Shown: positions 11,141 to 57,432 of the stretch, in pieces
Position numbering within the stretch: the first letter of the stretch is position 1
Layout: every line of letters starts with the position of its first letter
Source of the DNA: Apostichopus japonicus
Lineage: Eukaryota > Echinodermata > Holothuroidea > Aspidochirotida > Stichopodidae
Assembly: GCF_037975245.1 (NCBI RefSeq)
Contig: NC_092563.1
Location: forward strand, 27,431,960-27,495,959
Reading direction: 5' to 3'
DNA length: 64,000 nt
Translations under genes and position numbers: made by a program
The notes under the pieces: model-generated
The model's input: only the letters and a program-made list of their open reading frames with translations
Databases searched by the model: none
What the model was told of the DNA's origin: nothing

Positions 11141-11149
11141 CTTTTGTAC

Positions 11150-27547: not shown

Positions 27548-29789
27548 ATGGAGGCATTCAAGTCGTGGAGCGGTCTGCATGGCCGAACAGATATAAACAC
27601 CAGCTGCACAGAAGATGAGGAAGATATCTACAATGAGAGTTCAAAGGGAAGGTCGTCTGTGATCCTAATGCTAAAAGAGAAACTGGTATTGGCCCTTGAG
27701 AAAAGCCAAGGTAACATCAAGCCATGTCAGAGCCTTATTGAGGAACTTGCCTACATCGATGAACCTCTTCGAGTGAAATGCGCTAATGGTGTTGTTCTAG
27801 ACTTCATATCAAAGAATTCAAACTTACAAGTGAGTACATATTGCATTTTCAATTCTTATACAATTTAGAAGAAAGTTTTCTTATTATTCTAAAATGTGGC
27901 ACGGTATATGAAGAAGTAAGAGATGACGGGAGCCAGTAATTGACAACTATAAATCTGCACCACATGAGCTAAACAATTGGATAACACTAATATATTGAAT
28001 GTGTAAAAAGCCAAAGAATTGATTGCCAAATCGTTTATAAATACCTTTATCAATAGAAAAATGTTTCGCAAGTTTAGTAAACATGAACAAATGTTAACTC
28101 GCCTAGCCATATGCAAATGTGCCCCTATATTTGCCAAAATATGATTAGAAGTTTTAATAAAATAACTATAGCGATTAGCATACTGGGGTATTTATGGAAG
28201 TAACATGGTTAGTTACTGTAGCTAGTTCAATGCCAATGTTCAGACCATTTTGTATTCGACCCATTGTTCATTTGTCCAATGTTGATGTCTGTCCATTTGT
28301 CTAGTTTAAATGTGTCCTTAACCTGATTTCATATCAGTTTGCTTGTGAAGGAGATCCGGCTGGGATCGAAACGTCTTGCCCTGTAACTTATACATTACTT
28401 ACACATATTTTTAGCAGTATAGATAACAGTTTGTGCCCTCTTTAAAATATAAAGTATGTCAACCCACGTGTCAAAATATTTTGTTTTCACAGGAAAAGAG
28501 TAAAGTTAACGTTATTTCCGCTGGAGTGGATGTTCTTGTCAAGTATGGAGTCAATTTACTGAAAACAAACAAACATCCAAGTTGGAGGGCCATCAATATG
28601 TATAATAGCACATTTGCACACAAAGTGATGCCCCTGCAGGTAAGCGACAATAAATATGCACCATTACAGTTGTCAAGTTATACAAAATGTTGAATTGACA
28701 CCCAACCTTTTAAAGTTAAGTATCAACAAACATGTATGTACAAATGATGTTCACTTTAGTGCGGAGTTATGGATGAAGGGCGTGAATCCTGCTATTATAT
28801 AGCCCATAATCAATTGCCGTTCTAGATTGGAGTTTGTGATGAAATATGCCTCGTTATGGATTAATTGCTTGAGGTTACAGGTAAATGATTATATCATAGC
28901 TTGCCAATTCAGACGGGTGTTTGCTACATAATTTCTATCTTCAAAAATTAAGTTAGATAAACTCAAACTAAATTATAATTATTTCATCAATTTAAACCCT
29001 CATCACGTTAATGGCACATCATAAATATGTCAAAGATCATAAACCAAAGCTTTCAGATGATAAGTATAGTATAGCGGTGAGAGAAGATGAGATTATATCG
29101 ACGGGTTACACGTTATGGATTGGGTTAGGTGTCATCTTTGAGGACTTCCTTTAGTATAAGCCTATGTTATTGAGCAAATTAACGATAACACTGGGAGCCC
29201 ACGGAGTCAAACTCCGACTCATATTATGTAATAACACATCATGAACTCCACTGGTAAATGCATTTCATATATTTTGAGTTTCAATTTCGAAAGAAGTGAA
29301 ATCGTTGTCTCTCTTGTTGATATTTTCTGGTATCTACAGGGATACGATGAGGTTTTGGCTTCAATTGGATACGCAGGTCGTAATCGAACTAGCTATCATT
29401 TCCCAGATTCCTGCGAAACTGTAAATCTGAAAAGAGTCTCTGAGGTTACAGCAGATCTCTTGGTTCTACAAAGGGAATTCTCCCAGTACTTTAATCAGAC
29501 TCACGTCAACGGAGAGCGTTTTCTAAATAACTTCTTGAATTCCGACAAAACCTCTCGTTCAACTGATCTGGATATAACTCGGTATCTCGACCAAGTAGGA
29601 CTTGATGACCCCAACAAGAAATCTTGCTTCATCTGTGGTGAAGAAAACATATCAGTCCATTGCATAACCTGTTCGGAATGTTTTTGCGATGAATGTGATT
29701 CCAGATACCACCGTACATCTATCCGGTCAAGTCATGACAGAAAAAAGATTGGACCATTTAACATAAATTCCTCGCAAGGCGGTTTCGTT
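27548..29789 (+). CDS. RNF31-like: PUB and B-box-like zinc finger exons of copy 2
   Basis: These three exons carry the N-terminal docking part. Exon 2 contains the [10 protein letters not shown] helix and [12 protein letters not shown], matching the PUB region that in human HOIP forms the pocket for PUB-interacting motifs; the N-x-x-F of that segment is kept. Exon 3 continues with the [11 protein letters not shown] helix, then FPD. After about 70 residues it has the finger starting at CFICG with paired Cys and closing His residues. No equivalent of these exons is visible upstream of copy 1 or copy 3 in this window. Confidence 0.85.
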
Positions 29790-32700
29790 GTAAGCGTATT
29801 CTACTCCCTAATATAATAACTGGTTGCAATGTACATATAATTAGTTCAACTGTTTTTGTTTTTTTTACAAATATTTAGATATCCTTTCTGTAATCATAGA
29901 TCATAATTACTCAGCACCATTTGGTTTAGTTAATTAACATACGTTATTTACGTTACGAAATAATATTTATTATAATGACTATATATGATGCTGGACATAC
30001 AAAGTATGTATTTCAAGCAGGCGAAGAGGGAAGAGAACCTGTTTACTGTCAATGATGGAATCAATTGTACGGTCTCTTCCAGAGTCTTTAATATATCAAA
30101 TCAGTTTTAGACTAAAACTGTGACTATTTTTATGTAATGTTTTTTACATTCTAATGTTTCAGATAAGTCTTGAAAGTAGTCCCGAGGATGCCATTGAAAG
30201 GATTGAAATGAGCATTGTACATGAATCGAAAAAGAAAGAGGTGTAATGATAAATGTATTTAATATATGATAGTAATACGAAACTACATATTGTTTCTTTC
30301 ATATTGAGAAGCATTGAACAATCTATAACAGAACTTAAACTTGCCACATTCAGCTTCGTTCTAATCGACAGAAATAAGGCAAGAAAAAAACATGCGAAAA
30401 AGTGGAATGTTATATATTTCTATCGAATAGTATTTGCATGCAGGAAAATACAATAATAACAATGTCCTCGTTAAAACGAAAGAAAAAGCTGCATAGATGT
30501 TTTCACCTTATGTTAACTGATAATTAAAGATCCTGGTTAGCACCACTGGGGGGTATATACCATCGACAGTGGTAAAAAAATATGTAATGGAACTGATTTG
30601 TTTGTTGCTTGATGTTTGTTCACTGGTGAGCTGTGAGAGCACGAACTTGTCCGTTTAATACTTCTACATCAGATGTAAAAATGTTAAATATTTCCACTTC
30701 ACATGTAGAAATGTTAGTGTTGAAACGAGCTGTTAAATCAATTATTGCAAAGTATCGAACCAGATTTTAGCTTTTGGTTTCTCTTAAAATTAAGAAGTCG
30801 TGGGTTGAAACAGAGTGTGCTGATACTGCTAATTAAGTTGAGTTAAGTTTCCCTTGAACCTTTAAATACTACATATTTTGTCTTACTTTGATTTCATTCT
30901 TATTCACTTCAGTTAATTCGAAGAGTTTTAATGTCTAAAGAAAACATAAAAAAGGCTGCTATGGACACATTCTTCTATCTTAGGTATGAAGAACAACATG
31001 GGCTGAAAGACTGCATGGAAGCAGTGAAATCATCTGGAGGGAATCTAGCAAGGGCTAAAAACTTCTTTAAAGATTGTGCTATTTGCTTTGAAACTTTTGC
31101 TATGAGCCAGGTATAGGAATCATTCCTTTCTTTAAAAATTTATATTCCTTCTTATTAGTATATAGAGTCTCAAGCTATTAAGGCAACCTGAATTGATGTT
31201 TAGGGATTGTATGTATTTAGATCCTACTGCAAGCAGGAACTCGCGAAGAAGCCCCATTAGCTTATCAAAGCCACAAGCTGACCAAAGTCAGTCTCTTAGA
31301 TTCATATTTAACGTCCATGAGTATGAATTGTCAATTGTCAACAACTCTGTAACTGGACGGCATACATTAATCTTGGAGTGACTCGAACTCGAGACCTTAT
31401 GATTGGAAGGCACCGGCGTTAACCACTGAGCTAACACTGAGCTAACACATATTCATAGAACTGTCTCAGACTTATTAAAAAGATGTGAGCTCAGCTAGGA
31501 TATAAAACATTTCATACGTCCGTCTATACTACAATTAATTATTATGTGCATTCTTATTTTAGTATAATATTATTATATCTAGCTTGGAGAGACATAATTC
31601 AATTACAACGCATGACATTATTATGTTTATCCTTTATCAAAACAGCTCATTGGGACTCCATTCTGCCAGTGCCATATCTGTACTGAATGCTTCACTAAAT
31701 ACTTTACAATACTGTCCCAAACCACACAATGCATGTACAAATTTGCTTGTCCATCTTGCAATGAGCCTAATCTTGAGGCCAGTTCCGATGAGGAATTTCA
31801 AGATTATTTTGCGTTACTGGGAATGGTGGTAAGTTGCATCTTGGAACTATAAATTAAAATATAACATTTTATGTTACAATTCTGCCTATTTACATAAAGT
31901 GTAACCATAGTAATCTTCAATATTGCATGTGTGTATTTTATGAGGTGGGAGTCGTTTAGTTTAAGAGTTAAAGTTATATAAAAGCAGCACTCTTCTATGA
32001 TTTGAATAACTGTTTTGTTTTTAGGGCGGGCGTAATAGGGGTAAAGTGGGGATGAGGTGACAGATGGGAGATGTGGTTGTATAAATGAAAACTAAGGTTT
32101 GATTGACTCAATATTTTGCAAGCTGAGTTGAACTGTATCTCCTTGTTAGGCTGAAAGTCATTAATATGTGACATTGAGTAGAAACGGATACACTTAATGC
32201 TGCATTTCGTTTAGTATGTACCATTGAACTTCTCTTTGTCGATTAATTGTTTTCAGTTGCAACATCATCTGAATCCTGTAGACTTTGAATTATACCAAGA
32301 AAAGCTTGTGACTTGGGGTTTGATAAAGGACGAGAACTTTCGCTGGTGTGCAAATGTAAGCCTACATATCCTCAAGCAACCAAACCAAACCAAGTGCTTA
32401 AATATTCAAAAAAGTTATTAAATGTACATATATTAATATGCTTGAAAGGTTTATTTTAGAGTCACAATTCCTTAACGGATAGATTGGAAAAGTTTAAAAT
32501 CTTTCAATATTTGGTGTGCATTTGGTAAATGATCTTTCCTTGTAACACCATGAAGGTGTGTTCAAAGAGATAAAAAAAAGTGGTGAAATAAGATCTGAGT
32601 TTCTTTTCTCGTAAAATGTTACTTTTAATTTCATGGATCGTAGGGTAGAATTTATAACATCATGATTTATTTTCAACGCACATTTTAAATTTCAAGCATT

Positions 32701-35700
32701 TATCATCATATTGCTCTTAGATATGATTGGCTCAAATCAACTAATGTGACACAGACACAACGAAAAAAATTAGGGATATGTAATGTTTGCTAGGAAATGT
32801 GTTTTCCTTAATTAATTAACCCTGCAGTTGTTTTCAAATATTATTTTCTTCTATAACAGGGATGCACTAGTGGATTTATAAATGAAAGGCGTGATCTTAA
32901 AATCCAGTGCACAAATTGTAGAAAGTTCCAGTGCTTCAATTGCAAAAAAACGGTAAGTTCTGCCTGACTGAAAAGAATATATGTCCATTGAACTACCTCT
33001 TTTTCCTTTGATAATGTTGTAAACTTTACAATCAGAATTGTTCATACGGTTGACTTATATCATTTTAATGTTTCATGTAACCATTTTCTACAAAAGTATT
33101 TGGTGCCATTTTTATGCTTCAGATAACCATACATTTGCAATCTTGATGAAGTGCATGAGAGTCCATCATAATATCAAAATACACGTAAACATGGCATCTC
33201 AAGAAAAGGACACAATGGTTAGCTCAATAAATGGTATATGGGTGCCCAACAGTGATAAAAAGCATCATAGAAGTTGAGTGAAGGTCAATTGTCATTTGAA
33301 GACAACTTTATAATGAAAAGAAACCCTTTTCAAAGTTGGTATCTCAAAGAGAGAACGAAGGATAAATCGTAAACAATTGAACGTAAGGTCCCTCAAAGGA
33401 CCAACAAGGCCTATATGACAAACCCTCTTGAACATTTTCTTGATACCTCTAAAATGGAAACTTCAGATGTTAGGTCATCGAAACGTCAGTTTCTTTTTAA
33501 TTCTGGTGATTTAAAGAACTTTGCGATTGTGAGTTTCATTGTTCAGCTCAAGCATTATTTGATTTAGCACAGATTAATATGTTTTGAGGATATTTTAACC
33601 AATTCACGATAAGGTAATATTTGATGGAACTAAGAACATGGAAAACGTGTGCCCTCTATAGTGAGAATTCCATTAAACCAGGGAAAACTTGAACTAGGTT
33701 TCCTGTTTTATGTTACAGGTATGTTATGTTTAAAGTTTAGGGAGATCTTGAACTTCCTCTGTTTATTTGAACAGTGGCAGGAACAGCATGATGGCATATC
33801 ATGTAAAGAGTTTGAACGCTGGAAGAGAGACAACGACTCAGAGTTTCAAGCCCAAGGCTTAGCTGCACATCTCAAAGAAAATGGAATAAGTATGTGTTTC
33901 TGAAACTTACGTCTGGAAGAAGTGTTAGTTATTTGCTGCACAATTGTCAGACAAATGTTCTCATTGATTGGCTCAAACGTTATTATGTTCAAATGTTCAA
34001 ACGATGTTGGTAGAGAAAATGAACATTGATAACATAGTCATATATACATTAAATCATCTGACTAGTTACTGTCATCTGATGACAGAAAGGATATATTGTC
34101 AAGATTGTCAGCACCAACAGGCTATCTCTCTGTAATTAAATTAATAATATGTGTTAGTTATACTGGATGACAATGCAAAGGCGTTGGCATATTGATTGCT
34201 TTCTAGTCATCAATGTTTCACAATTTTCTGTTACTCAGATTGTCCCAACTGCAAGATGCGCTACGAACTTGCTAAAGGTGGATGTATACACTTCAAGTGC
34301 GCCCAATGCATGCATGAGTTCTGCTGTGGCTGTAATCTGCCATTCCTGAAATATGTAAGCATGAACAAATATCAAACTAAAGTCATAATAAAAATAATAG
34401 GGTGGTTGGAATTTGATATTTTAGCATATTTAGCACAAAAAGAAATCGTTGATATCGTGTTGGCGTTTCTTGTGTGTATATGTGACACCACTTGTAAACA
34501 CCGTAACTTAAGAAAAGTACTTAATTGGTTGAATGAATTTCATAGTTGTTGTGTGGATCCATATGTGTGAGTGCAAGAATTATTTTTGGTTTGCAAGGAA
34601 GTAAAAGGTTGCTTGAAGTCAGCAGATATCAAAGTATGAAAACTATGTTAGCACTCAACTCCAAAATGAAAGATTAAAAGATCTTCATATTTTTAAGCAA
34701 ATTCACTACGCTAAGTACAAACAGCCTATGATATATGTATGTAATACAGAGGTTAATTGAGGTCAAAGTATGAAAATGTTGTGAACACAATAACTCCACT
34801 ACTCAGACTTGAATGAGTTGAGATCATCTTAGTGAGTACAAATACCCCTGTGCTTTTGAGGTCAATGTTCATTAAAAGTTATCTAGTCTGGAAACCTTGC
34901 AAACACAAAACTTCAGAGGCAATTCCTTACAGAACTTGTTACCCCTTATCTAAACCATCTTAGTAAGTACTTGAGACTTTGTGCATATTATGGAGGTCAT
35001 AAGTCATATGTGGTTGGTAAAGCCTGAAACTTTGTATATGTAATAAGTTCAAAATTAAAGATGGAATGAATTTCCAGTGCTGTATGCAGATGACATTCAA
35101 TGAGTACAAGAAGACTTGTGCATCATAAGTACAGTAGGTCAAATATCATTTGAGTTCAACAGATGTCAATGTCTGAAAGCCTACTAAACACAATTACTTC
35201 AAATGCAGGAACTCCATGCCTTTGTGGGTAGGTCCACCTCAGTGCAAGAAGCCCATTGCATTTTGTGGAGGTCGAGTTCAAAAGAGGTCAATACAATAAC
35301 TGCCAAAGTATACAAAGCTCACATGAGGTGTGTGGCAAGGAATCACTGGGTTTCTTGTCTTGCTTTCTGGTTTCTAAACAGAGGGAAACTACTAGCCCTG
35401 TAGAACCTTAGGATATCCCCGCTCTAGGTAATGGATGATCGTAACTGTTAACCGAATACATTCATTAACAATGGTGATCAATATTGAGCTTCTGGAATCA
35501 TCTGGCCTTGCCTCTGACAATTGTTGAGTCCCATAATACCTAACTGTGATGAGTTTGCAAGGAATTCCCAACCTTCCTACTGGACAACATATGAAGTTAT
35601 AGACATGCTCATCCACTGTCTTTAAGTATCAAATATTTTGTGCCGTTTCCCCATGATTGATCAAGAACTAAAGATCATTTTTAAAAGTAAAATGTGGGGT

Positions 35701-38700
35701 CAAATTACCACTTAACTGTAAAGTTTTTTTTAATATTGACCTGAAACTTGGCACCTAGAAGTTGCTGATAGCTTTCCAAGTACATTCCTGGAGGTTTGCT
35801 CTCTCCAACATACTCGCAGCGGTGTGTTCAAATGGACAATAATGTCCCAGTGAGAAAATATGTTAAAAATAAACGGTATATGTTGTTCTATGCAGCCAAA
35901 GTGTAGGAAATTTCCAAGCTGTCAGGGGAAGGGTCTTCATGCTCATCACCCCAGGAACTGTCTGTATCACCTCAGAGACCAAGAATGTGATACTCTACAG
36001 AAACTACTCCAGGTAAGCCGTCATGGGTCTGGTCTCTGTATGCTCTCCAGTCTCCGCTCCCATTACATATACAAACATGAGTGGACTTTTTACAATACTC
36101 TGATCTTGAGATAAAAAGACCCTTCTAACAATGAGAGGGTTTTCCAGTGTTTGGAGGAAACAGGTGAAATTTTTCTAATTAAAGAAAGTATGGCACTTCC
36201 AAGGAACCTATTTATCGAGTCGGGTGCAGGGTGGCAAGAATGCTGGCCTACTTGGAAAGAACTTGTACGAAGTCACCCTCTGTACGACGCACCAACCACG
36301 GCGGGCAGTTGGAATAATTTTTTTTATTAAATCACAAGGTTGATATAATATGCAACAGATGCTAAAGAGCGCGAGAGCGATTGGCCAAGGTTAAGGCGTA
36401 TTGCTTGTATCCAGAGAAATGTCACAATGTAAACATTTGTCTTCCCAAATTCTTCCGTATCGAATTTTCATGAACTTTTTAGGCTTTTTGTTAATTGTTT
36501 GTGTTGTATTGATAGGCTAATGGTGTAGAATACAACATAGCCAATGTTGCAGCTACTCTACTAGAGGAAGATGGCTGTCCAGTCAAGGAGCAACGAGAAG
36601 GCCCAGATGGTTTGGTAGACGTTACTTGTGGAAGAGAGTTAATAGCTGCAGCCAGACTCTGCGTGTAAGATTTGCTTTACTTTCTTTCAATTATTTAAAC
36701 AGTGACATTAGTCCAACATTCCTAAATATTCAATTCAACTTAACTAACTGTAATTTTGTAGATTAAGTAGACATCAGCACACATAGAAAGGCAAGCATAC
36801 AAATAAACGATCAACGTTGAACTGATAATTAAATTATTATGAAATTGCTCCAACAGAAATCCTCAATTGAAAGCTGTTTGTTACTTTGCATCAGTTGTTC
36901 TGCACTGCAGCATAAATCATTTGTAGAAATGCATAGAAACTCCCTAAAATGATTAGAAAGATTTTCAACAAAACAATCATTTTACTGAACGAAAAGTTTC
37001 CTGAATGTAACCCAATAACATCAGCTGTATCAGCAATATGAAGATGTTACTGGTGCATTCGGTGAAATCCAGTATATTGTTTATACTTTAATCTTGTGAA
37101 GAAAGTATTAACGTGAGTTGTTACAATCTTCTTTAGGTTAAACACACACTATGCTACTTACATGGTGTACTTAACATGAAATCACAACTTTTTGGATAAA
37201 TTAGACATTGAGATCCATGACAGTCTTTTAGTTTTTGCACTTTTGAATTCATGAACACGATTTTAACAGTCAGAGTTTCCTTATACTTTTTCTTTCTGGC
37301 TAGTTATCATCCACTACAGGACACAAGTTTGGCTGTCTTTTGAAACAACAGTCTATGTCTCTCATTTTAGTCTGGAATTTGGTGAATTTTGAGGGCACTC
37401 TTTTGATAGACACAACAAATAAATGACAATACAGACAGTTTGCGCACCCTTTCCAGAAAGAATTGGGCCATTAGCCTAAACATATTTTCACCACCTATCC
37501 GGTCTGATACTAATACAAAAGTTATTATGATTGTCATCTGTATTGAATTGTTACCTTATGTATTTTAGTATGCATATCATATGTGATCTTGCCTGAACCG
37601 GAAGTTCGCAGTCAAAGTTCTTTTCCAACGTAGAATATTGACTGAAAGGAACATCCCGAAATTAAATCCACCGATCATACTTAGTTGATTTATTTTTTAT
37701 AGAATTTTTACTACTAAGCAAGAAAAACAAGGTTTTTTAATATAAGGATCGACTTTGATATTAACATTGAGAAGTCAATCGCTTCTTGTTATCCTGTATA
37801 TGTTGCATGCTAGGACATATGGACAAGACAACATACATAGTTTGTTACAACAGTTATATGATTATTGTGTGATATTTAACTTCCATAGGACTCACTACAA
37901 GGAATATCTAGTTAGTTTAATCAACCAAAGTAAAATAGATCCAGCCGATATTTTAACAGCAGATGAATTAGGAGCAGCACTAATGAGAGATGGGCAAAAT
38001 ATTCCTGGAAAACAAGTAGGTGAACCAGATAAAGCTTATCGTGAAAGATTAAGACAGGTGAGTTTGCAATATTCTACATTATTTGTGAAAATGGCAATTT
38101 TAAGACCAGAAAATAGTGTTTACAAAATTGGTGGACAGATTTTCCAGTTGTAACGGCTCAACTTTTGACCTGATCATGTGTTGCCCTCCCGATAAAAGCA
38201 TGCATTTAACTTTTTAAATGCAAATTTATGAAGTTATTCTTTACGTTTGGAAGTATTATGTCAATTGTTATCCAAATGTTCCGAGGAGCTGGTGCAGTTT
38301 ATTTACCTAACGTAAACCGTTGGTAAGCTCTAACAAATTACTATTCAATACTTCATTGAAGTTCAGTCTTAGACCTCATTTGACAAGACGTAAGGGACAT
38401 TAATAACAGATAAAACATATCGAACAGCAACCAGCAGAGTATGCATCGAGTTTGTGCATCTGTTACAAGGAATGAGAAGCAAGTTTTGTCTCATTTCTTC
38501 AGTCTTCACGTTGATTTCATTTGATATTTATGGGATTAAGTTTTTATTAACTAAAATATTCAGTAGTGCTTGTCACAGCAACACATAAGATTGGTCATAG
38601 TTTATAATGAACAACTACACTAGCCCTATGGAGGATACTAAGTGCTTCAGTATTGACTTGAAATGTGGTAATAAAATGAATTACCGTCAAACCCATGTAA

Positions 38701-39250
38701 ACTTGTAGAAAATCTAGCATGCTATTAAAACCTGAGATCAAACACCTTTATAAGTTACTTTATAGTTAATTATAGATTTCAATATTATACAAATGGAAAC
38801 TTGATGGCGAATTCTGAATAAATTTCTCCACCATCCCTCGTCTATCTACTCTCTCCCTCTCCCCCCCCCCCCCTCCCCTAACGCCTTCTCCTTTGCATAA
38901 GGCAACATCAAAGTACAATCTACTCAATTTCCTTAAGCGACCCCTCCCCCAACTGTAATAAAACCGTTCATCCTCCCTGAAGTACACACTCCTAGATGTC
39001 AAAGATGGTTATACCATGTCGTATTCAATACTTCTGGTACAAATGTTACATCTCAGAGTCATCATGTTGTGTTCTTAAGGGATTACAGCGGATGCTAACA
39101 AACCGTTCAGTGACAATATATTTTGGACACAGTTATATAAGTAAATGTATTTTTTCTTTCAACGAATGAGTATAAGACATCTCACTTATCAACAAATGCA
39201 CTCTTTCCCCACAGCTCCTCAAAACACAGATACCACTTCATTCGGAATGA
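27548..39250 (+). CDS. RNF31-like: HOIP/RNF31-like copy 2: PUB + B-box-like zinc finger + RBR-LDD
   Basis: The exons are 27548-27829, 28493-28639, 29340-29789, 30163-30240, 30913-31110, 31646-31828, 32257-32355, 32860-32952, 33775-33889, 34239-34354, 35896-36012, 36516-36664, 37889-38057 and 39215-39250 (stop TGA). Phases join into 743 residues. Domains: PUB about 20-205; a B-box-like finger in exon 3 (C-x2-C, HC-x2-C, CFCDECD); RING1 with Cys 374/377, the C-x-C-x2-C-x2-C block 392-400 and CPSC 420-423; IBR; RING2 with catalytic Cys 564 and His 566 in GGCIHF; then LDD. By homology with HOIP it is a RBR E3 ligase predicted to build Met1-linked ubiquitin chains in the cytosol. The PUB should dock deubiquitinase partners (OTULIN; CYLD through SPATA2). 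There are no NZF fingers, and the UBA is reduced to its last helix (30163-30240), so binding to HOIL-1L/SHARPIN-type partners is doubtful. The start has A at -3 and G at +4. An upstream splice acceptor at about 27480 suggests a 5'UTR exon. The exon at 30163-30240 has a weak donor (GAG|gtgtaa) and is the least certain. Confidence 0.92.
28341..28380 (+). ncRNA. Hammerhead-ribozyme-like motif, degenerate
   Basis: In intron 1 of copy 2 the sequence has a five-base-pair hairpin (28353-28357 with 28363-28367), followed directly by the hammerhead core GAAAC (28368-28372) and GTC (28373-28375). The first core box is TGTGAAG rather than TGATGAG, so catalysis is unlikely as it stands. Hammerheads of this compact type occur in Penelope-like retroelements and retrozymes. 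The flanking sequence is presumably a relic of one of these. Confidence 0.45.
31207..31440 (-). mobile_element. tRNA-derived SINE, minus strand, in copy 2 intron
   Basis: On the minus strand the head shows a Pol III A-box-like GTTAGCTCAGTGG (plus-strand 31423-31435) and a B-box-like AGTTCGAGTC (31380-31389). A unique body follows, and the element ends in a short CATA-type tail near 31207. The body (for example TCATGGACGTTAAATATGAA) recurs at about 51935 in copy 3. The tRNA-like head followed by an unrelated body and a simple repeat tail is the standard SINE layout. It lies between the exon at 30913 and the RING1 exon at 31646. Confidence 0.75.
34640..35340. repeat. Degenerate about 150-bp repeats in copy 2 intron
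   Basis: The intron 34355-35895 is 1541 bp, against 781 bp for the same intron in copy 1. The extra length holds several diverged units sharing GAGGTCAA-, GAACACAATAACTCC- and TCTTAGTGAGTAC-type words. One unit end (CACAATAACTGCCAA and following) is also present in copy 1 at about 16361. This indicates expansion in copy 2 or contraction in copy 1. Confidence 0.5.
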
Positions 39251-40524
39251 GACCGAATAGGGGGCAGCAAACAGATTGAGACCAAGAAGGGGGCAGCAAA
39301 CATATTGTGAGAAGAGGAGACAAACCTGAGAGAGAGAGGGGACAACCTTTCATACATATAAAGTATAGTCGTTCAATGCAGACGTTTCCCGAAATCTCTC
39401 ACAAAATGTTCTTCACAAATGTTGTGATTCATGACAATGTGAGGAATATTTTGTTTTAACAGCTTTAGTGTCTTATTTGTTTACATGTTTACACAATTTC
39501 GAAAAACTCTTCCCATAAGTTGATTTTTTTCTCTTTCAGCAAGAAATTAAAAAAAAATAACAACACTCTCATTAGAGTAAATTTAAAGTATGTTGTGCTC
39601 AAAAAGATAAAATATTAAACTTTGTCATACTCTGCTGCAGTTTTGCATTGGAACAATTAAGAGAGCTGCTGAATCTAAAGAGAAGTATACAACTGCATCA
39701 TGAATGATTCATACAAACTTTGACAAAACTTACGAACAAGAGTACTCAAAAATTTACACAGTCAAGATAATAGTAGGAAATAGAGGTACCTTATTAAGCA
39801 ATAAAGATTTAATTATACCTACCGGACAAAGAAACTTTGCATGGCATTGCTAAATTAATGTTAACTTTGTGGCTAAACATTTTGTTACCACACTTAAGAT
39901 CAATGACAATATATAGATATTGAGAAGCCTGAAGATTTTATCTTCATCCATTGATAGGACAGTATACCTCATCTTAGTAGGTCAGATACACGACTCAAAA
40001 TCGAAATCACAAGTATTATTGACTTCGTTATGCATTTCTAAGTCAAAACTTACTTTAAGAGAACAGACTGATAATGGAAAAACTTTCTTAAGGTACTGTG
40101 CATTTTATCAAATATTCTTTTTGAGAGCAATTCTATTGAAATGTCTTATTAAAATTGCTGGTATTTTCATTGCGTGTTCTACATCCGAGCTCCAAGTAAC
40201 TTCTCTAGAATGTTAGTGTTCTCTGTAAGTATCATGCGATGTATAATAACTTGGTTTAATTTATCTTACAACTTACGACTTTACATTGTGAAAATGAACT
40301 TGAACAGGGTCAAAAGTTCCTTATACTTTCTCGTTGTCGTTTTGATTGTTTCATCTTTAAAGCGAAGCATTTTCACCTTTTCTTTCATACATAGGTTACA
40401 CAGACCTGATACCCCCCCCCCCCCCCTTCCATGTGTTCTACTTTTTTGAGCATTTCTCTTTGATCCCCGTATATGTTTAGATAATTCTGTTTCGAATTAT
40501 CTAAACTTAAATTATCTCATATCA

Positions 40525-46208: not shown

Positions 46209-49200
46209 ATGGAAGCAAGGCGACACAGGTCAATCCGGATGGCATCTCCACCTTTAACTGTCTTCAGAAAGAAACAGATCCTTGAAAGTAAACTGGAAGG
46301 TCTAATGACAAGAGATGTTCATGTCCTAGAAAGGATAGATGCATTAAGGGAAACAGTCAAAAGCCAGATGCATGTACTTGGCACCAGTCAGATTAGGAAT
46401 GACGAAAGGGTCTTGTTACAACAACACCAATACCTGACGGATCAGATTCATGATATCGAGTCTGAACTCTCAATGTTTGGCCTGAGCGACCAAGGGGAAA
46501 TGAGATCAAGATGTCATCCACAAGGGACCGAGAGACTTGCTCCACATTACGTAAGTTAAATCCAGTTTGCCTGGTCTTCCACTCAAAATACTTTGCCAAA
46601 GTTGAATTTGTATTTTCTTAATTTCATGACTGCTGTTAATGAAATGTAATGAAAACACACATTTCAATCCCTCGGATATAATGATTTAGAGCATCTGGTA
46701 ACCTTTCTTAAAAATTAATCATTTTTAATATATTTTACATCCAAGTAAATACTGCGGTTGTGGCCAATCTGATTCTTTTCACAAGCGTTGCATTTTAATT
46801 AATATGGAATTTCATTATTCCTTTGAATAAGATGACTTGGCACTACGATTGTCAACCATTAATTGACCAGTAATAGACCAACAGATGAGAGCACTGTTCA
46901 AGATGAGGTATTATGATCTTATCAACAGGGTCTGTTTCCAGCAGTTGATTGGCTTATGTTGCAATCTTTCAATATTTGAAGCAATGGTTGCAGTAGCATT
47001 ATATCAGACCTGTGGTGTGACATCACAGCAATTATTCAATTTCAAGATCTGTGTCTGTGTCTCATTGTTCCTTTGCCTAGTTACCGGATCTACCAAACTT
47101 TGTAGTCCACGAGCACCCTCACATCATTACTTTACAATCATCATAAAATGCATTGGTTGTGATTTTTTTTTTGTATGTGAAGTCATGTGTCTCTCGCTGT
47201 TATATTTAGAAAGTTAAGTGAACTAAAGTTTCAAGATATTTTAACTTTAAGAAGACATAAGCAGTAAACGTAACAAAGTAATGACAACTTAGAATTCAAA
47301 ATACCACAAAAGAAATGGAAATATGTTTGGCAGCGCTCGAAGTGTCCATTCACCGTCTATTGTGTTCAAGGGGAGTCTAATTACAATATTGCTGATCTAG
47401 GGTAAAATTTATTGGGTATTCACTATAGCTTTTCAATGATTTTTAAAACAAAAATGATTTCTTCTTTGTAATGATCACCTTGACTCATTTCTGGCCACAG
47501 AACGAAATTTATTAAAATGAGTAAATTGATTGCTGAAGAAAATAGTTGCACAACACTTGGTCTAATAATGTTTGTTTATTGCCCTAGGCACGTCCTATAA
47601 ATGTTGATAGGCTATTAACATACCAACAGTATCTTTCTTTACCAGCCTAGTTAATGCAACTGTTAGTTGACATGCAAACCTGAATGACTTACACACAACC
47701 ACCATTTGTCAACTCTCGTTTGTTTCCTGTAAAAGATATATTTACATTATACTCTGCATGAAGTGTTGTAACGTTGGTTTGCAATTGTTTCCGAATAACT
47801 TTAATACGGGTTTGATGTGGTTCTCCCACATTTTAATACCTGCTTGTTTTCATTCTTCCAGCATACTTTTTCCGAAGATAGATCCTGCTCACGAAAATAC
47901 CATAGCCACAGTAATTGCAACTCCAATAGTAATTGCTGAGACATATGCATACTTGCCTTCACTCTCTCTCCTTTTAAAGTTAAATATATTTAGAAATAGT
48001 TGGGTTTACAGTTCTTCGCTTGTCATCATAATAGTTAATGATAGCGAAGGAACTTTGGCAAGAAATCAACGAGCTGTTTGCCTTTCTTGTTTCTTTATTA
48101 GAATGCAGGCATGTTTTGCTCAGGCCCTGAGGAAAGTTTTTCACAAAAAGAATTTGCTACTGCCCGGAAAATTATTGAACGTGGGGATAACAAGACTATG
48201 GAACCCGTTGACTGGTTGAAAATGCATTTAAAACAACAACTGAATCTGATTGGTGAAGATGCCGCCAAAGAACTTTGCAGAATATACCAATTAAACCACA
48301 AGAAAAAGTGAGTTCATGTTCAAATTAGTTAAATATAGTTTTGTAAAAGTTAGAGAGCCTGACGTTTCGATTCATCAGAGAATAACTTATACGAGGACAA
48401 ACGAAGAACACATTAAGAGCGCTGGTGGACAGACAATTAAACTGGGCAAAACAGACACTCGCATTAGAAAAACAGACAATGAATAAAGCAATGGAATGGA
48501 TATATGGCGTGTGGTAATAAAAGACATACGTTCGAAGTTTTTGTTGGATCATAATGACACCTTTGATATATTTTTCAGTTAAATGCAAATTCACCGTCGC
48601 CAATGATGAATCAAATACCACAATACCACATGCCTTAAGTCTTTACTTCTTAGTTTGTCAAATAAGACAAAAAAAAACATTAAACTTTTGTTTTTGGCTC
48701 TGCCGCAGCAATTTTCGCACTATCCCTGCCGATTATATCCACCGTGCTTGGTTGAATAATGATGGGATGCGAGATGAAACTGCAACTGAATGCGTGACCT
48801 TTCTTCAGAATATGGTTAGTACTTACCTTAACTGCTTTGAAAAGAGTAAGTGGATACAGACTGGAACAATGGTAGGATGTGGGAGGTTTAACGTAAGATT
48901 CAATTTATGTGTATAAATGTGCTGGTATGCAGATATGTATGTTCTTGGATGGGTATGGTTACTTCTATTTGTAATTTGGAAATGAGGTATGCTCAATCAA
49001 GTATGGCTGCCACCTAACTTCAGTAACATCGACTTGATGTTCAAGAAGGTTATTGTCTTCTTCGCTTTTCTTTATCCAAAATAGACAAAATCAGCAAACT
49101 TTTGGCATTGTTTTCTTCTATCGTTCATATTTTCGTCCAAATATAGGTGGAAGAGTTCTGTGATGACCATCGTTTTATCAAAGGGAATGCTGCGGCGTTG

Positions 49201-52200
49201 TTGTTGTTTCAGAATGGATTTGACTTGAGTAATGTGAACTGGCAGCTTCTGAGACAAGCAGTGGGAGAAGATGTTGAAGAAATAGAACAATGGCTTAGAG
49301 ACTTTCTAAATGGAAGCGTAAATAACATTGAGGTTGCTATTTCAAAAATTGAGAAGGGCAGCCTTATGACATGTGACAAGAAAGAGGTAAAGTGACATAT
49401 TGCGGTACATGATTTCGCTAATCAAATAAACACGGAGTTGCAATTTCAATGGAAACACCTTTAATTAATAATTGCTTATAGAATACATAAAAATATTTAA
49501 AATTCGTCTCTCATTTATGACCTCCGCACTGAACGAAAGAGCATTCAGTCCTTTTATCTGTTAAACCTCAGTTGTCGTTGTTGGTGTGCAGTTTGGCAAT
49601 ATTTAATTTGTGAACGTTTCACGTATATTCAGCCTTTGTTCTTGGTAGTCATAGCCTCAGTCTACGACTGAATGCTGGCCTTCCATTTTGAACTTCCTCA
49701 AGCCATCAGTCACTGTCACTGAGCGACTTTCAAAGCAATTTGAGTCAATCATCTACATCAAAGGGATCAATCAAACAAATTCGCGCTAGCTTGTTTCATG
49801 TTTTTTTTTTCATCTTTCATGCTCTTTTTGTGTATGGACGTCAGGAATCTATAGTACCCTTTAGTCCCTTTCGAGCCATCTTATAAATATATACTTACTA
49901 GTCAAACATATGGGCAGTTTTTAAGACTCAGTTAGTTGAATTAACCGTTGAGAAATGGTATAGTATGTTTTTTGGTAAGTTTACAAAATTAGAATCTGCT
50001 GACAGGTCTAGCATGTGTTATGGCAAACTTCACTTTATACTGAATAACAGTTTATTCTTATTCACATGTACACTGGGTGAATTATATCCCTTGATTATCT
50101 GTGTAAAGGTTGTTAGTGAATTTAAAGTTTCCATTTAATTCGAACTTTGACCTCTCTGAGGTCAGCGAGACACATTCAGTTCATATTACGGGGCAACTAT
50201 CTACAAATTTGGAAGCAAATCGGCCCAGCAATTCAGGAGGAGTTTTCGACACAACTTTATAACGTTAGATTTAGCATTTGACTATGTGACATATGAACTC
50301 AATTATCATAGCAACCACATTTGTACAGTACTTGGCATTTAGATTATAATTGTGATGGTTGATTCATTGTTCACTTCCTTCAGTTTCGATCTGAGGGTCT
50401 GTGAAACACAAGTTCCAATCATCGGGAACCTTGCTACTAAGTTTGAAGATAATCAGCTGATGTAGCACACACAAACATGCCCACACATGCGTACACACAC
50501 TCACAAGGACATCACTTTATCCGACCCCAGTTATGGACTTCCGATGTTCCCGTGACTCGCTACTCCGGAACAGTAACTGATTACTATAGTAACCTTTGTT
50601 ATGGTAACTGAAAAAGCCGTTATATGTTCCAATAACCAACCGTGTACAATATCTCATCCTACCTTTAGTATCGAGGAGATGAAAATGAGTTGAAAAAATG
50701 TCCCAGCGTAATTGCTTTAAAATACTGCTAACTGAAAATAATACTTTTTTAAGAAAAGTCACCAAGGAAAGAACCTGGGCACGAAAAACCAAACAACCGA
50801 ACGACTGATCCGCTCTCAACCCCAGTCCCCTTGCATCGAGACTGTGACTGTGTGATCATCGTAAGGTGTTTATCACGATCCTCCTCGAAAGGGAACAGAT
50901 ACTACACATGATCTGAGCCAAAACGCCGCGATACACTTAAGAATAAGTCGCCCGAGAAAGAACCTGGGCACGAAAAACCAAACCACCGAACGACCGATCC
51001 GCTCTCAACCCCAGTCCCTTTGCATAGGGACTGTGACTGTGTGATCATCGTTGGGTGTGCACCACCATTCCCTTCGAAATGGAACAGATACTACACATGA
51101 TCTTAGCCAAAAGGCCAAGTAGAAGTGATGAGGAGATGTTATATCAAATACTTGCGAAAGTACAGATGATTACGTATAGTCGTATACATCTGGAAAGAAC
51201 TTGGTTCAGTCCTGAAGAGACGTAAGTCTAAAAGTGTGTGACAGAGGGTAAATTGCAGCAAATAGAAAGTATACAGCAAATAGGAAGCTCAAAGTTGTAT
51301 TAAAATACTTTACTTTAGACATCCAAGCAGGTGCTAAACATCAATTCAGCAATAAAAATGTTCGATAAGTGATCATTTTAATATCTGTATGATCTGAAAT
51401 ATGATTCCCTTTTTTATACTGGTTAAGTATCAAATTCCAAGGGAAATTCATCCTCCCGACTTCTATCCAACACTGCCAACGTGTTAACGCCAATGTCATT
51501 TCAGAAAATCCGATGGTTATTAATGGCTACAAGGGGCATGAATTGGGCAGCTGTGGACTCTTTCCTCTACTTGAGGTTCAACGAAAATTATAAACCGGTA
51601 GATTGCTTGGAAGCAGTGGATTCATCTGGAGGGAATCTTATCAGGGCCAAGGCTTTCTTTAAAGAGTGTTGTATCTGCTATCAAACTTTATTTAGGAGTC
51701 AGGTAAGAACGATAAGGAGAGGAAGGCTGCAATATCAGCAGCTAGTTGTGATGTATGTCGAAGTTTAAAGTGCTTGTGTTTTGAAATGTATCTACTGTCC
51801 AGAGATACAATGGCAATTGGTATGTCTAGGTACGATACTTTCATATCTGGTCAAGGTAAAAACATAAACATTGGATTATAATTTGCTACTTCATTAGCAG
51901 AATACTTCATATGCAGAATTAACAATTCATAATCATGGACGTTAAATATGAATGTAAGAGACTGACTTCGGTCAGCTTGCGGCTTTTATAAGCCAATTAG
52001 GCTTCTTCGCGAGTTCCTGCTTGCAGGAGGATCTAAAATACATACATACATACACCCATACATGCACACCCACACACACACACGCATACACGCATACATA
52101 CATACATACATACATACAGAGTAGCTGAAACGAGATCAACTAAGGCAACTCTATACCCCTTGCTTAGTTACTTCCAAAGGCGGTATCTGTAGTATTTCTG

Positions 52201-55200
52201 TTATTGTGCTTTATATATGATTCCTTTTGTTCTTTCTTTCATGCTTCTTCAAAATATGATAACATCAAAAGCAAATTTGAATCCACGTATGCCCGTTTTC
52301 GTGTCATGTCAATTGAATATCTGTTCAAGGTCTAATAAGAGAGAAATGTCACTACATGGTGTTCGTTGTACACTGTTACTTAGGTACTGCTATGACAGTA
52401 TTAGTCTAACAGTGCATAATAATATCCTATCTTGCTTGGGGAATCTAGTGCACGTGTAAGTGATATGGTCCATACTGACTGAATTCTGTTTTAATTCCCT
52501 TCTATACAGCTCATTGAGAATCACTTTTGTCAATGCTTCCTCTGCGGAGAGTGCTTTTCTCAACATTTTTCAATATTGGCCAAAACACAATATTGTATCT
52601 ACAAGTTTGTTTGTCCAGCATGTGATGAACCTAAGCTTGAGTTTTGCTCAGAAGAGGATTTTATTGGATATTTTTCGAACCTAGAACAGCTGGTAAATAT
52701 CTTCTTACATTCATCATCATTAATAAAATATATAAGTATTTATACTCAAAACTCAATTTGGAGATACAAATTTCTCATAAATTTACTTAACGTTGAAGAG
52801 TTATGTTATTTATAACATTTGTAAGTAAACGACGCTAAGCAAAAAAGGAATACTTTGAATTATAAAGCCTGAAGTTACTAAGAATAATTATCATAACATT
52901 GATTGATTTTTGCAGTTACAAAAGCATATGCAGGAGGCAGATTATACACTCTTTCAACAGAAGCTCCTGACTTGGAACTTGAAGAAAGAGAACAATTTTC
53001 GTTGGTGTGCAAATGTATGTATATTTTAACACATTTCACTACTTCCACTCCAATATTTCTGTCACGTCTTGTTATGAAGCGTTTTTGGAGGGGTTTCATT
53101 AATGGTCAATCAAGTGGGATTCGGGAGGTAACCATTTGAAGTTTCGGCGTGATAAATATATACTTTATATTATTTTTTGCGAGTTAGTTGTTAACACATT
53201 ACATTCATGTAGTCACATATATTTTTTTCAATGTCCACGGCTTGCAATTGCTTTTACTGCCATTTTCGTCAATACCATATAAATCTGTCGATAAGACACG
53301 TAAGCAAAATATTACTCCAATAACAATTGTCTGCCTTATTACATGAGGTTACCATGGGCATACACAATTCGAACCTGTGTCTGGTATATATCCCCTGCCA
53401 CATTTACCTTTTCCTCAGTTCAGTTCACAGTTAAATTGTTACCTTAATTATAACTGTGATTATCCTTAAAATAAATACCAAAATTCTCCCGGAAAATTAA
53501 AAAAAAAAGTCAAATAAACTTCTGCAAAGATATATATATAAAAAATCTGCAGTTGAATTTTGCTCTGTCTCCATTGCTTTGTATTTGATGTTTTTGCACT
53601 TTGTGCTTTCTTTGAGATTCAAGAACCGTCGATGTCACTTGTATTTTGTATATCATTGTGTATCATTGAAACTGGTAAGATTATGACATGATGACATAAA
53701 TATGAATCTCTTTCTTGCCCAGTGGAAATAATCATATCAACAAATGATAAACAAACTCACCATAACGTTTGCTACCGTTCTAATAGGTTTGATCTTATTC
53801 TTATTTGATATTTTGTCTCTTTTTTCTCCCAAGGGATGCACTAATGGATTTATAAGTGATCGGAATGTGAAGAAAATTCAATGCACAAACTGCTTAAAAT
53901 ACCAGTGTTTTTATTGCAATAAGCCTGTAAGTCCCTGATTTACTCTGAAGCATTGTCTTTGAGGTGTTTGGGTTTCTTTACTTCACAAGAAAAATACGTT
54001 TCTGGAATCTGATTCAGTAAACTTAATGTGTTAATTATGTTATCATCATTTGCAAAGTTGAATGTATATGATACAAGAACGCTGTACATGTCTAATGTGG
54101 TCTATATACTGCTGTTCCAGTACCTTACCAAATGAGATCTTCGAATGGTATCTTATTGTTTTACTGTGTCAAATCGACATCTTCAATTAAGATTGTTCTG
54201 CTTTACTGAGTCAAATCGACATCTACAAGATTGTTTGTCATGGCCACGAATTTGCAAAAAAAGCGAACAACAGAACTTGTTAAGTTGTATATTTAAACGT
54301 GGTGAAGAAAATGGTGTACCTTTACCTTTTTTTTATTTTACAGTGGCTGGATCAGCATAAACACACAACATGTGAAGAGGTGGAGAACTGGAAGAAAAAT
54401 AGCTACCCAGAGTTTCAAGCTCCAGGCTTAGCTGCTCTTCTGAAGAAAAATGGAATTAGTAAGTCTGTTTATGTTGTCAATTCTGCAAGATATCAATGTG
54501 CTTATTTGTTTATAGCGATTAACAATAATTGTTAGTCATTGTACATTTGGACATTGAAGTGACGTTTTCGTTAATATTTAATTTTTTGCTCCTTCAGATT
54601 GTCCACGATGTAAGATGCGTTACGAACTTGCTAAAGGGGGATGCATGCATTTCAAATGCCCTCAGTGTTTGCATGAATTTTGTTGTGGTTGTAATCTGCC
54701 ATTCGTAAAGTATGTAAGTATCGGATAATGGACTCGAAATAGACTCTTAAGCCTCTTCAGCAGGCAGTCTTCCACGACTGCAATATGACTTATTTTTATT
54801 TTTTCACCATTAAAAGTTTATTATTTAGTATTGAACTGTTTTAAAGGATATGTCATAATGAGCCCAGCGCATTGGTTACTGTTGGTCAATACCTACATTT
54901 TAGTATACACAATGAGCAGAACGACATTGTCTATATGATAGGCAAGTATGAATTTTGTTTATTATGAAGTGGGATAAAAGTAGATACTTCAATTTCTTTT
55001 CACAGTTAATGTGTCTGATATTATGTGTGGTTGTGTTTGTTTTTATATGTCGCGATGCTGTTTTGTTGTTGTTATTATTCTACGTTGTCATGTTAGTATA
55101 TTTTTTATATGTATTTGCAATGTTGTATTTATTATGATCTTCTATGTCGTTGTATGTTACATATTGTTATGATGCTAATGTGTTGCTCTTCGCAGCCAAA

Positions 55201-57432
55201 CTGTAGATTTCCAGCGTGTCAGGGGAAGGGTCTTCATGCTCATCACCCCAGGGACTGTCTGTATCACCTCAGGGACCAAGATTGTGAAACTCTACAGAAA
55301 CTACTCTTGGTAAATAATCACTTTTTATCATTTGGCCATTCCCTGAATCCGATCATCGTTCCTTACACATGACTCGGATGAGTAACTTGATAATAATGTA
55401 TTGATACAAATGTTTTGAGTAGGTTTCCATCGTGTATTGCATCTCTGCTGATGTGCTATGGTGTGTGTGTATGTGAGCAATGTATGACATTAACATATTT
55501 AACATACATTTTTACTGTAACAATTGGATTGGAAATGTGTGTTTCCAGCCATAACGATGGAGGGGACCGTAATGTTCTATAGAGAGATTTTTGTTTGGTA
55601 GGGCTTGTGATATGGGTCCGTTTTTTCCCAACTTGGTTTCATATTTGTGTGTTTGTTGTAGGACAGGGTACAATACCCCGTGGGCTTAGTTACCCCGCAA
55701 ATGTACTAGGAAAGACATGTATCTTCTTAGTCACCTGTATGAGTGTATGATAATTAATAACGAAACTTTTAATAGGAGTTGAAAAAAAGCTGGCTTGTAC
55801 AAAGTATTATAAGGTATTATTACATATTTTGTTTCGGACTTGTTACATTGACAGACCTATGGTGTAGATATTAACCGAACCGGGACAGTCAATCTAGAGC
55901 AGGTCAATGAATGCCCAGTCAAGGAGCAGCGTGAGAGCCCAGATGGATTGATCGATGAAAGTTGCGGCAAACCGATAAAAAATGAAACTGGCCTCTGCGA
56001 GTAAGATATTAATTTATTTTGAATCATTTTCATAATCCAAGTTAATCAAACGCTTATATTCTCCATCGTTATATGTGATTATAACTTAAAGAAAACAAAT
56101 ATAATTACACAGTCACGCTAATTACTTTTATTGTTCAATACAATGTGTATCCAACATCGCCAGTGGTACAAATTTGCTTTCATTAAATAAAGCAATAATA
56201 ACCGAGTTAACTTTAAATGATTGTTGTTGTTGGTATATAGCTTACAAACGCTTTAGTTGTGATCATTTGTGATAATCACCTTCACAGGTCTCACTACAAG
56301 GAGTATCTGGTTAGCTTGATAAACCAGAATGTTATAGATCCAGCAGATATATTGACCGTAGATGAATTGCTTGCAGCACTACGGAGAGACGGAGTAGAAG
56401 TCTCGGGGAAGAGATTGGATGAAACGGACTACGAGTATCAGACAAGACTAAGACAGGTGAGTTCTGTAGCAGATATCACAAATGCGTTAACCACTAGAAC
56501 ACGCTAAAACGCAATAAAGGCAAATGATTCAGAATGATATCACAAATGCGTTAACCAATACAACATGCTGAAACACAAAAAGGCACATGATTTAGATTGA
56601 CATCACAGATACATTAACAACTACAACATGCTAACACACACAAAAGGCACATAAAATAAATTGATATCACACATGCATTAACCACTACACAACATGCTAA
56701 AACACAAAAAAGGCACATGATTTAGATTGATACCAAAAATGCATTAACCACTACAACATGCTAAAACACAGTAAAGATACATGATTCAGATTGACATCAC
56801 AAATGCATAAACAACTACAACATGCTAAAACACAACAAAGGCAAATGATTCAGATTGATATCACACATGCATTAACCACTACAACATGATGAAACACAAT
56901 AAAGACATATGATTCAGATTGATATCACAAATGCGTTAACCACTACAACATGATGAAACATAGTAAAGGCACATGATTCAGGTTGATATCACAAATGCAT
57001 TAACCTCTATAACACGCTAAACACAATAAAGGAACCTGATTAAGAGGCATACACTCCAACGGCATACTTTATCATTGATGTTTAGTGCTGTTCCTCGTAC
57101 GGGAAAGGTATTTGCCAAATTTTTGAAATTAATTTAGCAAGTGCATGTTTTTTTGGTAATCAACTGTCCTTTACGACAATAAAACATTTGAAAACGTTTG
57201 AAAATTGATTATATGATTCATTTAGTTTCTTTATCGATGCCAATTGATGTATTATTATAAACCAGTTTCCATCTTTCTCAACACAACCTAATATAGGGTA
57301 CATTGATTCTTGATAAGGACAAAACATTAAGCCAGTTTTTCCCTTTATATTGGTAAAAAGGCCTCTTACAAAACGTGTAATGTTTTTCTCTTTCAACAGT
57401 TAATAAAACAGAAGATACCACTCTACTTTTAA
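46209..57432 (+). CDS. RNF31-like: HOIP/RNF31-like copy 3: coiled coil + UBA + RBR-LDD
   Basis: The exons are 46209-46550, 48102-48307, 48709-48814, 49147-49386, 51505-51702, 52510-52692, 52916-53014, 53834-53926, 54344-54458, 54598-54713, 55196-55309, 55855-56000, 56288-56456 and 57400-57432 (stop TAA). All phases fit and give 719 residues. Domains: a charged, heptad-rich, Cys-free segment (about 20-95, predicted coiled coil); an extended UBA (about 115-290) matching the HOIP UBA; a pre-RING helical segment; RING1 (Cys 353/356, [15 protein letters not shown]); IBR; RING2 with catalytic Cys 543 and His 545 in GGCMHF; and LDD. It is predicted to be a Met1-linkage RBR E3 ligase able to bind UBL partners (HOIL-1L/SHARPIN type) through the UBA. 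PUB and NZF fingers are absent. The start at 46209 has A at -3 and G at +4. In the same frame a stop at 46122-46124 sits right after an acceptor, so this ATG is probably the true start behind a 5'UTR exon. Confidence 0.92.
48102..49386 (+). CDS. RNF31-like: UBA exons of copy 3
   Basis: Three exons with phases 0-2, 2-0 and 0-0. They contain the landmarks [31 protein letters not shown] with [27 protein letters not shown], and a final helix ending CDKKE. The order matches the unusually long UBA of HOIP that binds the UBL domains of its LUBAC partners. Copy 2 has an exon aligning only with the last of these helices (ending SKKKE), which supports loss of the rest there. Confidence 0.82.
48349..48386 (-). 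ncRNA. Hammerhead-like motif lacking stem II, minus strand
   Basis: On the minus strand the core reads CTGATGAATCGAAACGTC. This joins the two conserved hammerhead boxes (CTGATGA and GAAAC) with only three bases where stem II should be. Flanking AGTTA and TAACT can pair as stem I. It lies in a copy 3 intron and adjoins about 170 bp of repeat-like sequence. Probably a relic of a Penelope-like element or retrozyme; catalysis is not expected. Confidence 0.5.
50767..50932 (-). repeat. U2-snRNA-headed element, distal copy
   Basis: On the minus strand it starts ATCGCGGCGTTTTGGCTCAG, followed by ATCATGTGTAGTATCTGTTC. This corresponds to the first 45 bases of U2 snRNA, including the branch-site-pairing GTAGTA, with some changes. 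After TATCTGTTC the similarity to U2 stops: no Sm site or U2 3' stem-loops follow. The remaining about 125 bp (through GATGATCACACAGTCACAG and GGTTTTTCGTGCCCAGG) is shared with the neighbouring copy only. It lies in the copy 3 intron 49387-51504. Confidence 0.65.
50956..51129 (-). repeat. U2-snRNA-headed element, proximal copy
   Basis: Its minus-strand head contains GGCCTTTTGGCTAAGATCA and GTGTAGTATCTGTTC, closer to functional U2 than the distal copy, with a small insertion before GGCC. The body matches the distal copy; the period between them is 189 bp. A snRNA 5' end fused to an unrelated body, present more than once, suggests a snRNA-derived SINE or a chimeric retro-pseudogene that was later tandemly duplicated. 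It could also be a divergent U2-like RNA gene, but the missing Sm site argues against that. Confidence 0.7.
51921..52119 (+). mobile_element. 5'-truncated SINE with (CATA)n tail, plus strand, in copy 3 intron
   Basis: The body from about 51921 to 52035 matches the body of the SINE at 31207-31440, here in the opposite orientation. It is followed by a long CATA/CACA simple repeat (about 52036-52119). The tRNA-like head is missing, as expected for incomplete reverse transcription. It lies between the exons at 51505 and 52510, the same intron position as the copy 2 insertion. Confidence 0.8.
56472..57045. repeat. 64-bp minisatellite, 9 units, in last intron of copy 3
   Basis: Units begin at 56472, 56536, 56599, 56663, 56729, 56793, 56857, 56921 and 56985. 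The consensus includes GATATCACAAATGCATTAAC, CACTACAACATGCT and CATGATTCAGATT. It starts 15 bp after the splice donor of the exon ending at 56456. The last introns of copies 1 and 2 have no such unit. Confidence 0.95.

Follow-up and report, generated by a model that had tools for sequence, protein, structure and literature searches.

A tandem array of four HOIP-type genes in the sea cucumber Apostichopus japonicus: a probably complete gene with trimmed paralogs

The window, a stretch of 64,000 nucleotides on contig C3 of Apostichopus japonicus (C3:27431960-27495959, in a genome of 671.6 Mb and 35 contigs), carries part of a cluster of genes of the RNF31/HOIP type. A preliminary description had reported two adjoining RBR-LDD genes in it, one with a PUB domain and no UBA, the other with a UBA and no PUB, and had proposed that the docking modules of HOIP were partitioned between them by complementary loss after duplication, giving two differently tuned ligases or two obligate partners. 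The two genes were confirmed by exon models and Pfam. We consider it quite probable, however, that HOIP is not split, and that a complete gene stands with trimmed paralogs in a four-gene array. As far as predicted exons and domains can tell, the locus holds four RNF31/HOIP genes in tandem, this number being a lower bound. The genes are called copies 1 to 4 (Table 1), and E5 to E13 designate the catalytic-side exons compared across them. Around the window, 20 stretches of 10 kb were studied, leaving out 1,960 bases (C3:27430000-27431959) that by their position lie in a satellite array.

Copy 1 has only its 3′ part in the window. A set of 5′ exons turned up at C3:27305064-27320592 when the copy 2 and copy 3 proteins were used as tblastn queries; it comprises PUB, a long proline-rich exon, two B-box-like fingers, an NZF-like motif, the UBA exons and RING1; no second set of 5′ exons was found by tblastn in the flanks studied. 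Joining both parts gave a model of 18 exons and 1761 residues, with GT-AG borders at all 17 introns and phases consistent across an intron of 125 kb. In Pfam, whose matches were taken at E up to 1 for all models, it scored 52.7 bits for PUB (cut-off 34.3), 88.7 for LDD, 52.3 for IBR_1 and 18.9 for UBA_HOIP. Its PUB matched that of human HOIP with an E value of 5.2e-18. Exon 5 holds WRCEHCTYLNEASDGNICTMC, which we take to fit the NZF pattern; no zf-RanBP match was obtained in Pfam at E up to 1. Exons 11-18 contain no internal stop and have intact splice sites, and the PUB and UBA exons are open too. By its predicted content, copy 1 is a HOIP with both docking modules.

The intron that separates the two parts (C3:27320590-27445899, 125,310 bases) is mostly satellite. 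The 21-mers of the array at the start of the window (window 1-10800) recur from C3:27348399 on, and cover 81-95% of positions in eight 10-kb stretches (C3:27350000-27429999). A weaker and different periodicity, of ~785 bp, was seen at C3:27320000-27339999, with no 21-mer in common with the ~804-bp array. The edges of the insert could be placed by comparison with intron 6 of copy 2: its positions 32149-32205 align with C3:27321453-27321511, directly 5′ of the insert (79.7% over 59 bp), and from 32209 on it aligns with the window from 13894 on, directly 3′ of the insert. Since this one short intron aligns to both edges, the insert appears to sit within a single ancestral intron. Based on these edges, on the presence in the 5′ part of exons that the 3′ part lacks, and on the intact frames and splice sites, the two halves of copy 1 are apparently one gene.

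Copies 2 and 3 were modelled entirely within the window. Both models are open throughout and show GT-AG at each of their 13 introns, an agreement that is partly built in, as splice sites were chosen by reading, guided by the frame and the other copies. For both, the best solved-structure match is the human HOIP RBR-LDD (E 2e-95 for copy 2, 8.2e-87 for copy 3), and RBR followed by LDD (PF18091) is over cut-off in the models of copies 1 to 3. The domain contents described earlier held in Pfam: copy 2 has PUB (39.8 bits), IBR and LDD (83.7 bits) and no UBA_HOIP match, while copy 3 has UBA_HOIP (30.6 bits), IBR and LDD (80.6 bits) and no PUB match. The B-box-like finger of copy 2 scored 19.6 bits, under the Pfam cut-off of 24.1, and no NZF-like motif was seen by eye in this model; the copy 3 model is likewise without a B-box or, by eye, an NZF-like motif. 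Hidden Markov models (HMMs) of our own for PUB and UBA were also run over open reading frames of at least 15 residues, on both strands of C3:27280000-27545899 except the 1,960 bases mentioned above. Chance-like matches reached 6.9 bits for PUB and 4.3 bits for UBA in this search, and at most 4.0 and 2.4 bits in the reversed window (64 kb only). The stretch between copies 2 and 3 had no PUB match at E up to 10; within copy 2, 5′ of the RING1-side exon, the sole UBA match was to the end of the domain (7.4 bits, E 1.2).

This match is exon 4 of copy 2, a candidate stump of a UBA exon. Its HMM score is not significant alone, but none of 5000 shuffles reached the score of its alignment with the end of the last UBA exon of copy 1. 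The alignment with the UBA exon of copy 3 is weaker (78 of 5000 shuffles reached the score). Blastn of exon 4 gave 73% over 67 bp (E 0.001). Because exon 4 aligns to the last UBA exon and shares its end and phase, copy 2 most likely possessed a UBA in the past. Exon 3 of copy 2, which joins the end of PUB to the B-box, has as its counterpart in copy 1 a 1849-nt proline-rich exon plus a separate B-box exon; the simplest reading is that it was fused by an internal deletion. In copy 3, the UBA matched the human HOIP UBA in PDB (E 7.2e-4), and its exons are homologous to those of copy 1, with 77 of 182 residues identical. The first exon of copy 3 is, by tblastn (keeping plus-strand matches above 25 bits, outside the repeat of copy 4), the counterpart of the linker exon found in copy 1 right after the B-box exon, and the start of the linker exon (GARPK) is still recognisable 5′ of the chosen ATG. 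There may be an extra 5′ exon (AG at 46120-46121), though phase-0 splicing would meet a stop codon immediately. Of the complementary loss proposed earlier, the loss of modules thus stands, with the UBA stump in copy 2 and the start of copy 3 at the linker exon; the partition between two genes does not.

It could still be argued that HOIP works as two halves, in copies 2 and 3, and that copy 1 is dead or was broken when the satellite was inserted, given that the modules of copies 2 and 3 are complementary and that the insert of 125 kb separates the docking half of copy 1 from its catalytic half. We find this improbable: exons 11-18 of copy 1 are free of internal stops and have intact splice sites, its PUB and UBA exons are open, its protein branch over E7-E13 is shorter than that of copy 2 (0.028 against 0.149, in a weakly supported five-sequence tree), and long introns are ordinary in animals. 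We rejected the split HOIP, and find no support for obligate cooperation, as the cluster of at least four HOIP-type genes retains one that combines both modules with open catalytic exons. The split model would return if copy 1 proved dead.

Copy 4 was found downstream of the window. Its exons E5-E13 are open, and its LDD exon is over the Pfam cut-off. At 146 nt, its PUB exon is one nucleotide shorter than the PUB exon of copies 1 and 2 (147 nt), and no single register holds throughout; the first PUB exon was not found with our HMMs. No UBA was detected by HMM or tblastn, and neither B-box nor NZF by tblastn above 25 bits, no B-box HMM having been run. Where the proline-rich exon would sit, there is an open frame of 1774 residues (L017:2324-7645, i.e. 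C3:27498223-27503544), much of which is a ~198-bp tandem repeat (17.1 copies, 88% matches). Genome-wide, the LDD search gave at least 6 matches (at least 11 candidates scored), all in one cluster, that of the four HOIP-type genes, and the best 4 of 24 IBR_1 matches fall on the same four genes. PUB exons over cut-off are also present on C4 and C23, and probably belong to other PUB proteins. The exon-wise genome search with PF16678 (UBA) scored one candidate and had no match at E up to 1; it missed the copy 3 UBA because this domain is split over three short exons.

Table 1. Coordinates of the features at the HOIP locus (plain numbers are positions in the window)
Feature	Position	Strand	Description and basis
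Copy 1, exons 1-10	C3:27304953-27320589		Outside the window, 125 kb upstream
Satellite array, end	1..11200	.	~804-bp unit, stronger ~1613-bp period; self-shift periodicity, shared 21-mers, open reading frame repeats at ~804-bp spacing
Copy 1, exons 11-18	13941..20511	+	IBR, RING2, LDD; exon coordinates, phases, Pfam on joined model
Copy 2	27548..39250	+	14 exons, 743 residues; PUB, one B-box-like zinc finger, RBR-LDD
Copy 2, exon 3	29340..29789	+	C-terminal part of PUB and B-box in one exon; model comparison
Copy 2, exon 4	30163..30240	+	Putative 26-residue stump of last UBA exon; same end and phase as the full exon in copies 1 and 3
E5-E6 region, UBA-RING1 boundary	copy 1 L005:9481-9678, L006:408-590; copy 2 30913-31828		Raised dN/dS
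Copy 2, intron 6	32149..32256	+	Flanks of the copy 1 insert align on both sides
Copy 3	46209..57432	+	14 exons, 719 residues; linker, HOIP UBA, RBR-LDD
Copy 3, UBA exons (three)	48102..49386	+	Pfam UBA_HOIP
Copy 4	C3:27498295-27513844		Downstream of the window; tblastn with copy 2 and copy 3 proteins

Alignment with human HOIP, read by eye, indicated that the zinc ligands of RING1 and RING2 and the catalytic cysteine are kept, the cysteine of the GGC motif (presumably C885) being present in all four copies. At the position where chain 4ljo has a histidine and chain 4ljp an alanine, all four copies have a lysine. After the catalytic cysteine, RING2 reads HFKC in the four copies (e.g. window 16161-16276), against HFHC in human HOIP. 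As for docking, the available parts of two papers report that mammalian OTULIN and SPATA2-CYLD bind a pocket of PUB for which N102 is essential (PMC4017264; PMC5135002). Changing N102 to Asp or Gln abolished binding, and Y82F, V104A and N85A, as a set, had a 10- to 50-fold cost in human HOIP; the contacts named for the PUB-interacting motif (PIM) are I78, Y82, N85, P92, Y94, N102, V104 and Y124 (same parts of PMC4017264). We mapped these eight contacts by eye on alignments with the human PUB. Copy 1 keeps 6 of them, P92 and Y94 both being N, and copy 2 keeps 4, with H for P92, S for Y94, I78V and V104T; N102 is kept in both. The UBA, for its part, is reported to take part in an autoinhibition of HOIP that HOIL-1/SHARPIN release (available parts of PMC5135002).

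Divergence between copies 1 and 2 is very uneven along the gene. Synonymous divergence (dS) is 1.59 [1.05-2.7] in the PUB exons (212 codons), compared to 0.45 in E5, 0.18 in E6 and 0.24 in E7-E13 (286 codons). Introns behave in the same way: none of the 4 compared introns 5′ of E6 aligns, and alignment starts just before E7. Past E7, two introns taken by themselves gave alignments of 70.8% and 68.4%, and longer blocks of exons with introns gave about 72-80%. Based on the low and high dS values and on this start of intron alignment, the catalytic halves of copies 1 and 2 are, by sequence comparison, recently homogenised, either by gene conversion or by partial re-duplication, and the docking halves anciently diverged. 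A recent duplication of the whole gene was considered and rejected, given the PUB dS, set against that of E7-E13, and introns that align only from near E7. The homogenised tract has no sharp edge, as the E5-E6 intron does not align and the ratio of nonsynonymous to synonymous divergence (dN/dS) is raised in E5 and E6. Taken separately, these exons have ratios of 0.65 [0.34-1.4] and 0.96 [0.49-2.63], and an excess over 1 is not established.

Several observations weigh against a complete copy 1 with working paralogs. The UBA_HOIP score of copy 1 is under the Pfam cut-off of 22.4 bits, and a PDB search with this UBA returned no HOIP UBA among the 3 matches at E up to 1, so that the call leans on homology to the UBA of copy 3. 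Two of the copy 1 donor sites are weak (GTATGA and GTACTC). Its halves could be separate fragments, as it is from the sequence that we infer splicing across 125 kb. Neither PUB keeps P92 or Y94, two of the eight PIM contacts. Between copies 1 and 2, dN/dS is raised to 0.76 over E5-E6, against 0.27 over E7-E13, and the supports of the five-sequence tree are weak (58-72). Finally, for the orthologues of HOIL-1L and OTULIN, which the preliminary description had brought in as partners, no genome match over cut-off was obtained with Peptidase_C101 (OTULIN) or LTM (HOIL-1L/SHARPIN), in an exon-wise search that had no positive control and is blind to split exons. A loose OTULIN search gave 10 matches, the best of 20.3 bits compared to a cut-off of 27, and 9 of the 10 had an internal stop. 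We do not read these misses as absence, because the exon-wise search also missed the UBA of copy 3.

Some of these points would also suit decay of copies 2, 3 and 4 into pseudogenes, only copy 1 being of importance. All three have lost modules, the PUB exon of copy 4 is one nucleotide short and out of register, and the raised ratio over E5-E6 involves copy 2. Yet no stop is present in E5-E13 of any of the four copies (the last exon of copy 4 lies outside the models), and dN/dS is well under 1, with 0.15-0.29 over E7-E13 in the five older pairs, those other than copies 1-2, and 0.22 [0.12-0.35] over the PUB exons of copies 1 and 2 (212 codons). We regard this explanation as slightly less probable even than the split HOIP. 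The ratio over the UBA exons of copies 1 and 3 is 0.54 [0.33-0.82] (182 codons).

In human, HOIP, the catalytic subunit of LUBAC, is a single gene. Copy 1 resembles it in the order of its predicted modules (PUB, zinc fingers with an NZF-like motif, UBA, RBR and LDD), and adds a long proline-rich region and two B-box-like fingers. The RBR-LDD part is common to copies 1 to 4, with 44.2-50.7% identity to human HOIP over E7-E13, whereas copies 2 to 4 are without some modules, and the genes are four in tandem. The closest likeness to copy 3 is Drosophila LUBEL (CG11321), described in the available parts of PMC5090701 as a HOIP orthologue with a HOIP-type UBA and RBR-LDD, and no PUB, in an animal reported there to have no HOIL-1L, SHARPIN or OTULIN. 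LUBEL is a larger protein with a second UBA, in which B-box and NZF are retained, whereas copy 3 has no B-box or NZF-like motif and is one of four paralogs. As LUBEL is a HOIP with a HOIP-type UBA and no PUB, the layout of copy 3 is not new in kind. Among echinoderms, a proline-rich motif was reported in RNF31, and the RNF31 of Acanthaster planci is reported to bind Amphiphysin; the available parts of this paper mention no paralogs (PMC12778051). Copy 1 also has a long proline-rich exon, a likeness in composition, and copies 2 and 3 have none. No report of an RNF31/HOIP gene cluster was found in the open-licence literature, by title or start of abstract, among the matches listed.

Apart from the HOIP genes, Rfam at gathering score and ARAGORN detected nothing within the window. 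Below the Rfam gathering score of 46, two tandem pieces resembling U2 small nuclear RNA lie on the minus strand in a copy 3 intron (50861-50937 and 51050-51129; 32.3 and 43.9 bits). A long TA microsatellite occupies about 58270-58370 of the window. Elsewhere in the genome, contig C35 has a COX1 whose translation is that of a normal protein under mitochondrial code 9 (AAA as Asn in NHKDIG and in GFGNW, TGA as Trp), the code used by echinoderms and flatworms. Five further COX1 matches at C29:14745-31219 point to a possibly duplicated or rearranged mitochondrial contig.

The picture that we propose for this locus is the following. Copy 1 would be the complete gene, with PUB, proline-rich region, B-boxes, NZF-like motif, UBA, RBR and LDD, spliced across an intron grown to ~125 kb by satellite DNA, and would do the ordinary HOIP job. 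Copies 2 to 4 would be derived paralogs that kept the catalytic half and underwent different N-terminal losses: NZF and UBA in copy 2; PUB, B-boxes and NZF in copy 3; and in copy 4 a PUB exon gone out of register, with no UBA found. All four are predicted to make linear ubiquitin chains. Copy 2 would keep the PUB site for deubiquitinase adaptors and be free of UBA-dependent autoinhibition and of assembly with UBL partners, acting as a ligase independent of assembly whose PUB is weaker or altered; copy 3 would keep a partner-gated UBA and be unable to dock PUB partners. Copies 2 to 4 may therefore be add-on variants, rather than halves of a split enzyme.

The locus also illustrates a trap, since a 64-kb window takes in no more than the 3′ half of a gene stretched by a satellite-filled intron, and the trimmed neighbours of that gene then look like the whole story. 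More tentatively, and with the odds rather against it, the array could be a natural separation-of-function set, made of a complete HOIP, a PUB-only HOIP free of UBA autoinhibition and a UBA-only HOIP without deubiquitinase docking; gene conversion would hold the catalytic halves of copies 1 and 2 close to each other and the docking halves would diverge, such that the chain output is the same and its control differs. If the truncated paralogs are expressed, they would be natural counterparts of mutational experiments, a HOIP without UBA and a HOIP without PUB beside their complete parent, and would offer a way to find out which control a linear-ubiquitin ligase can do without.

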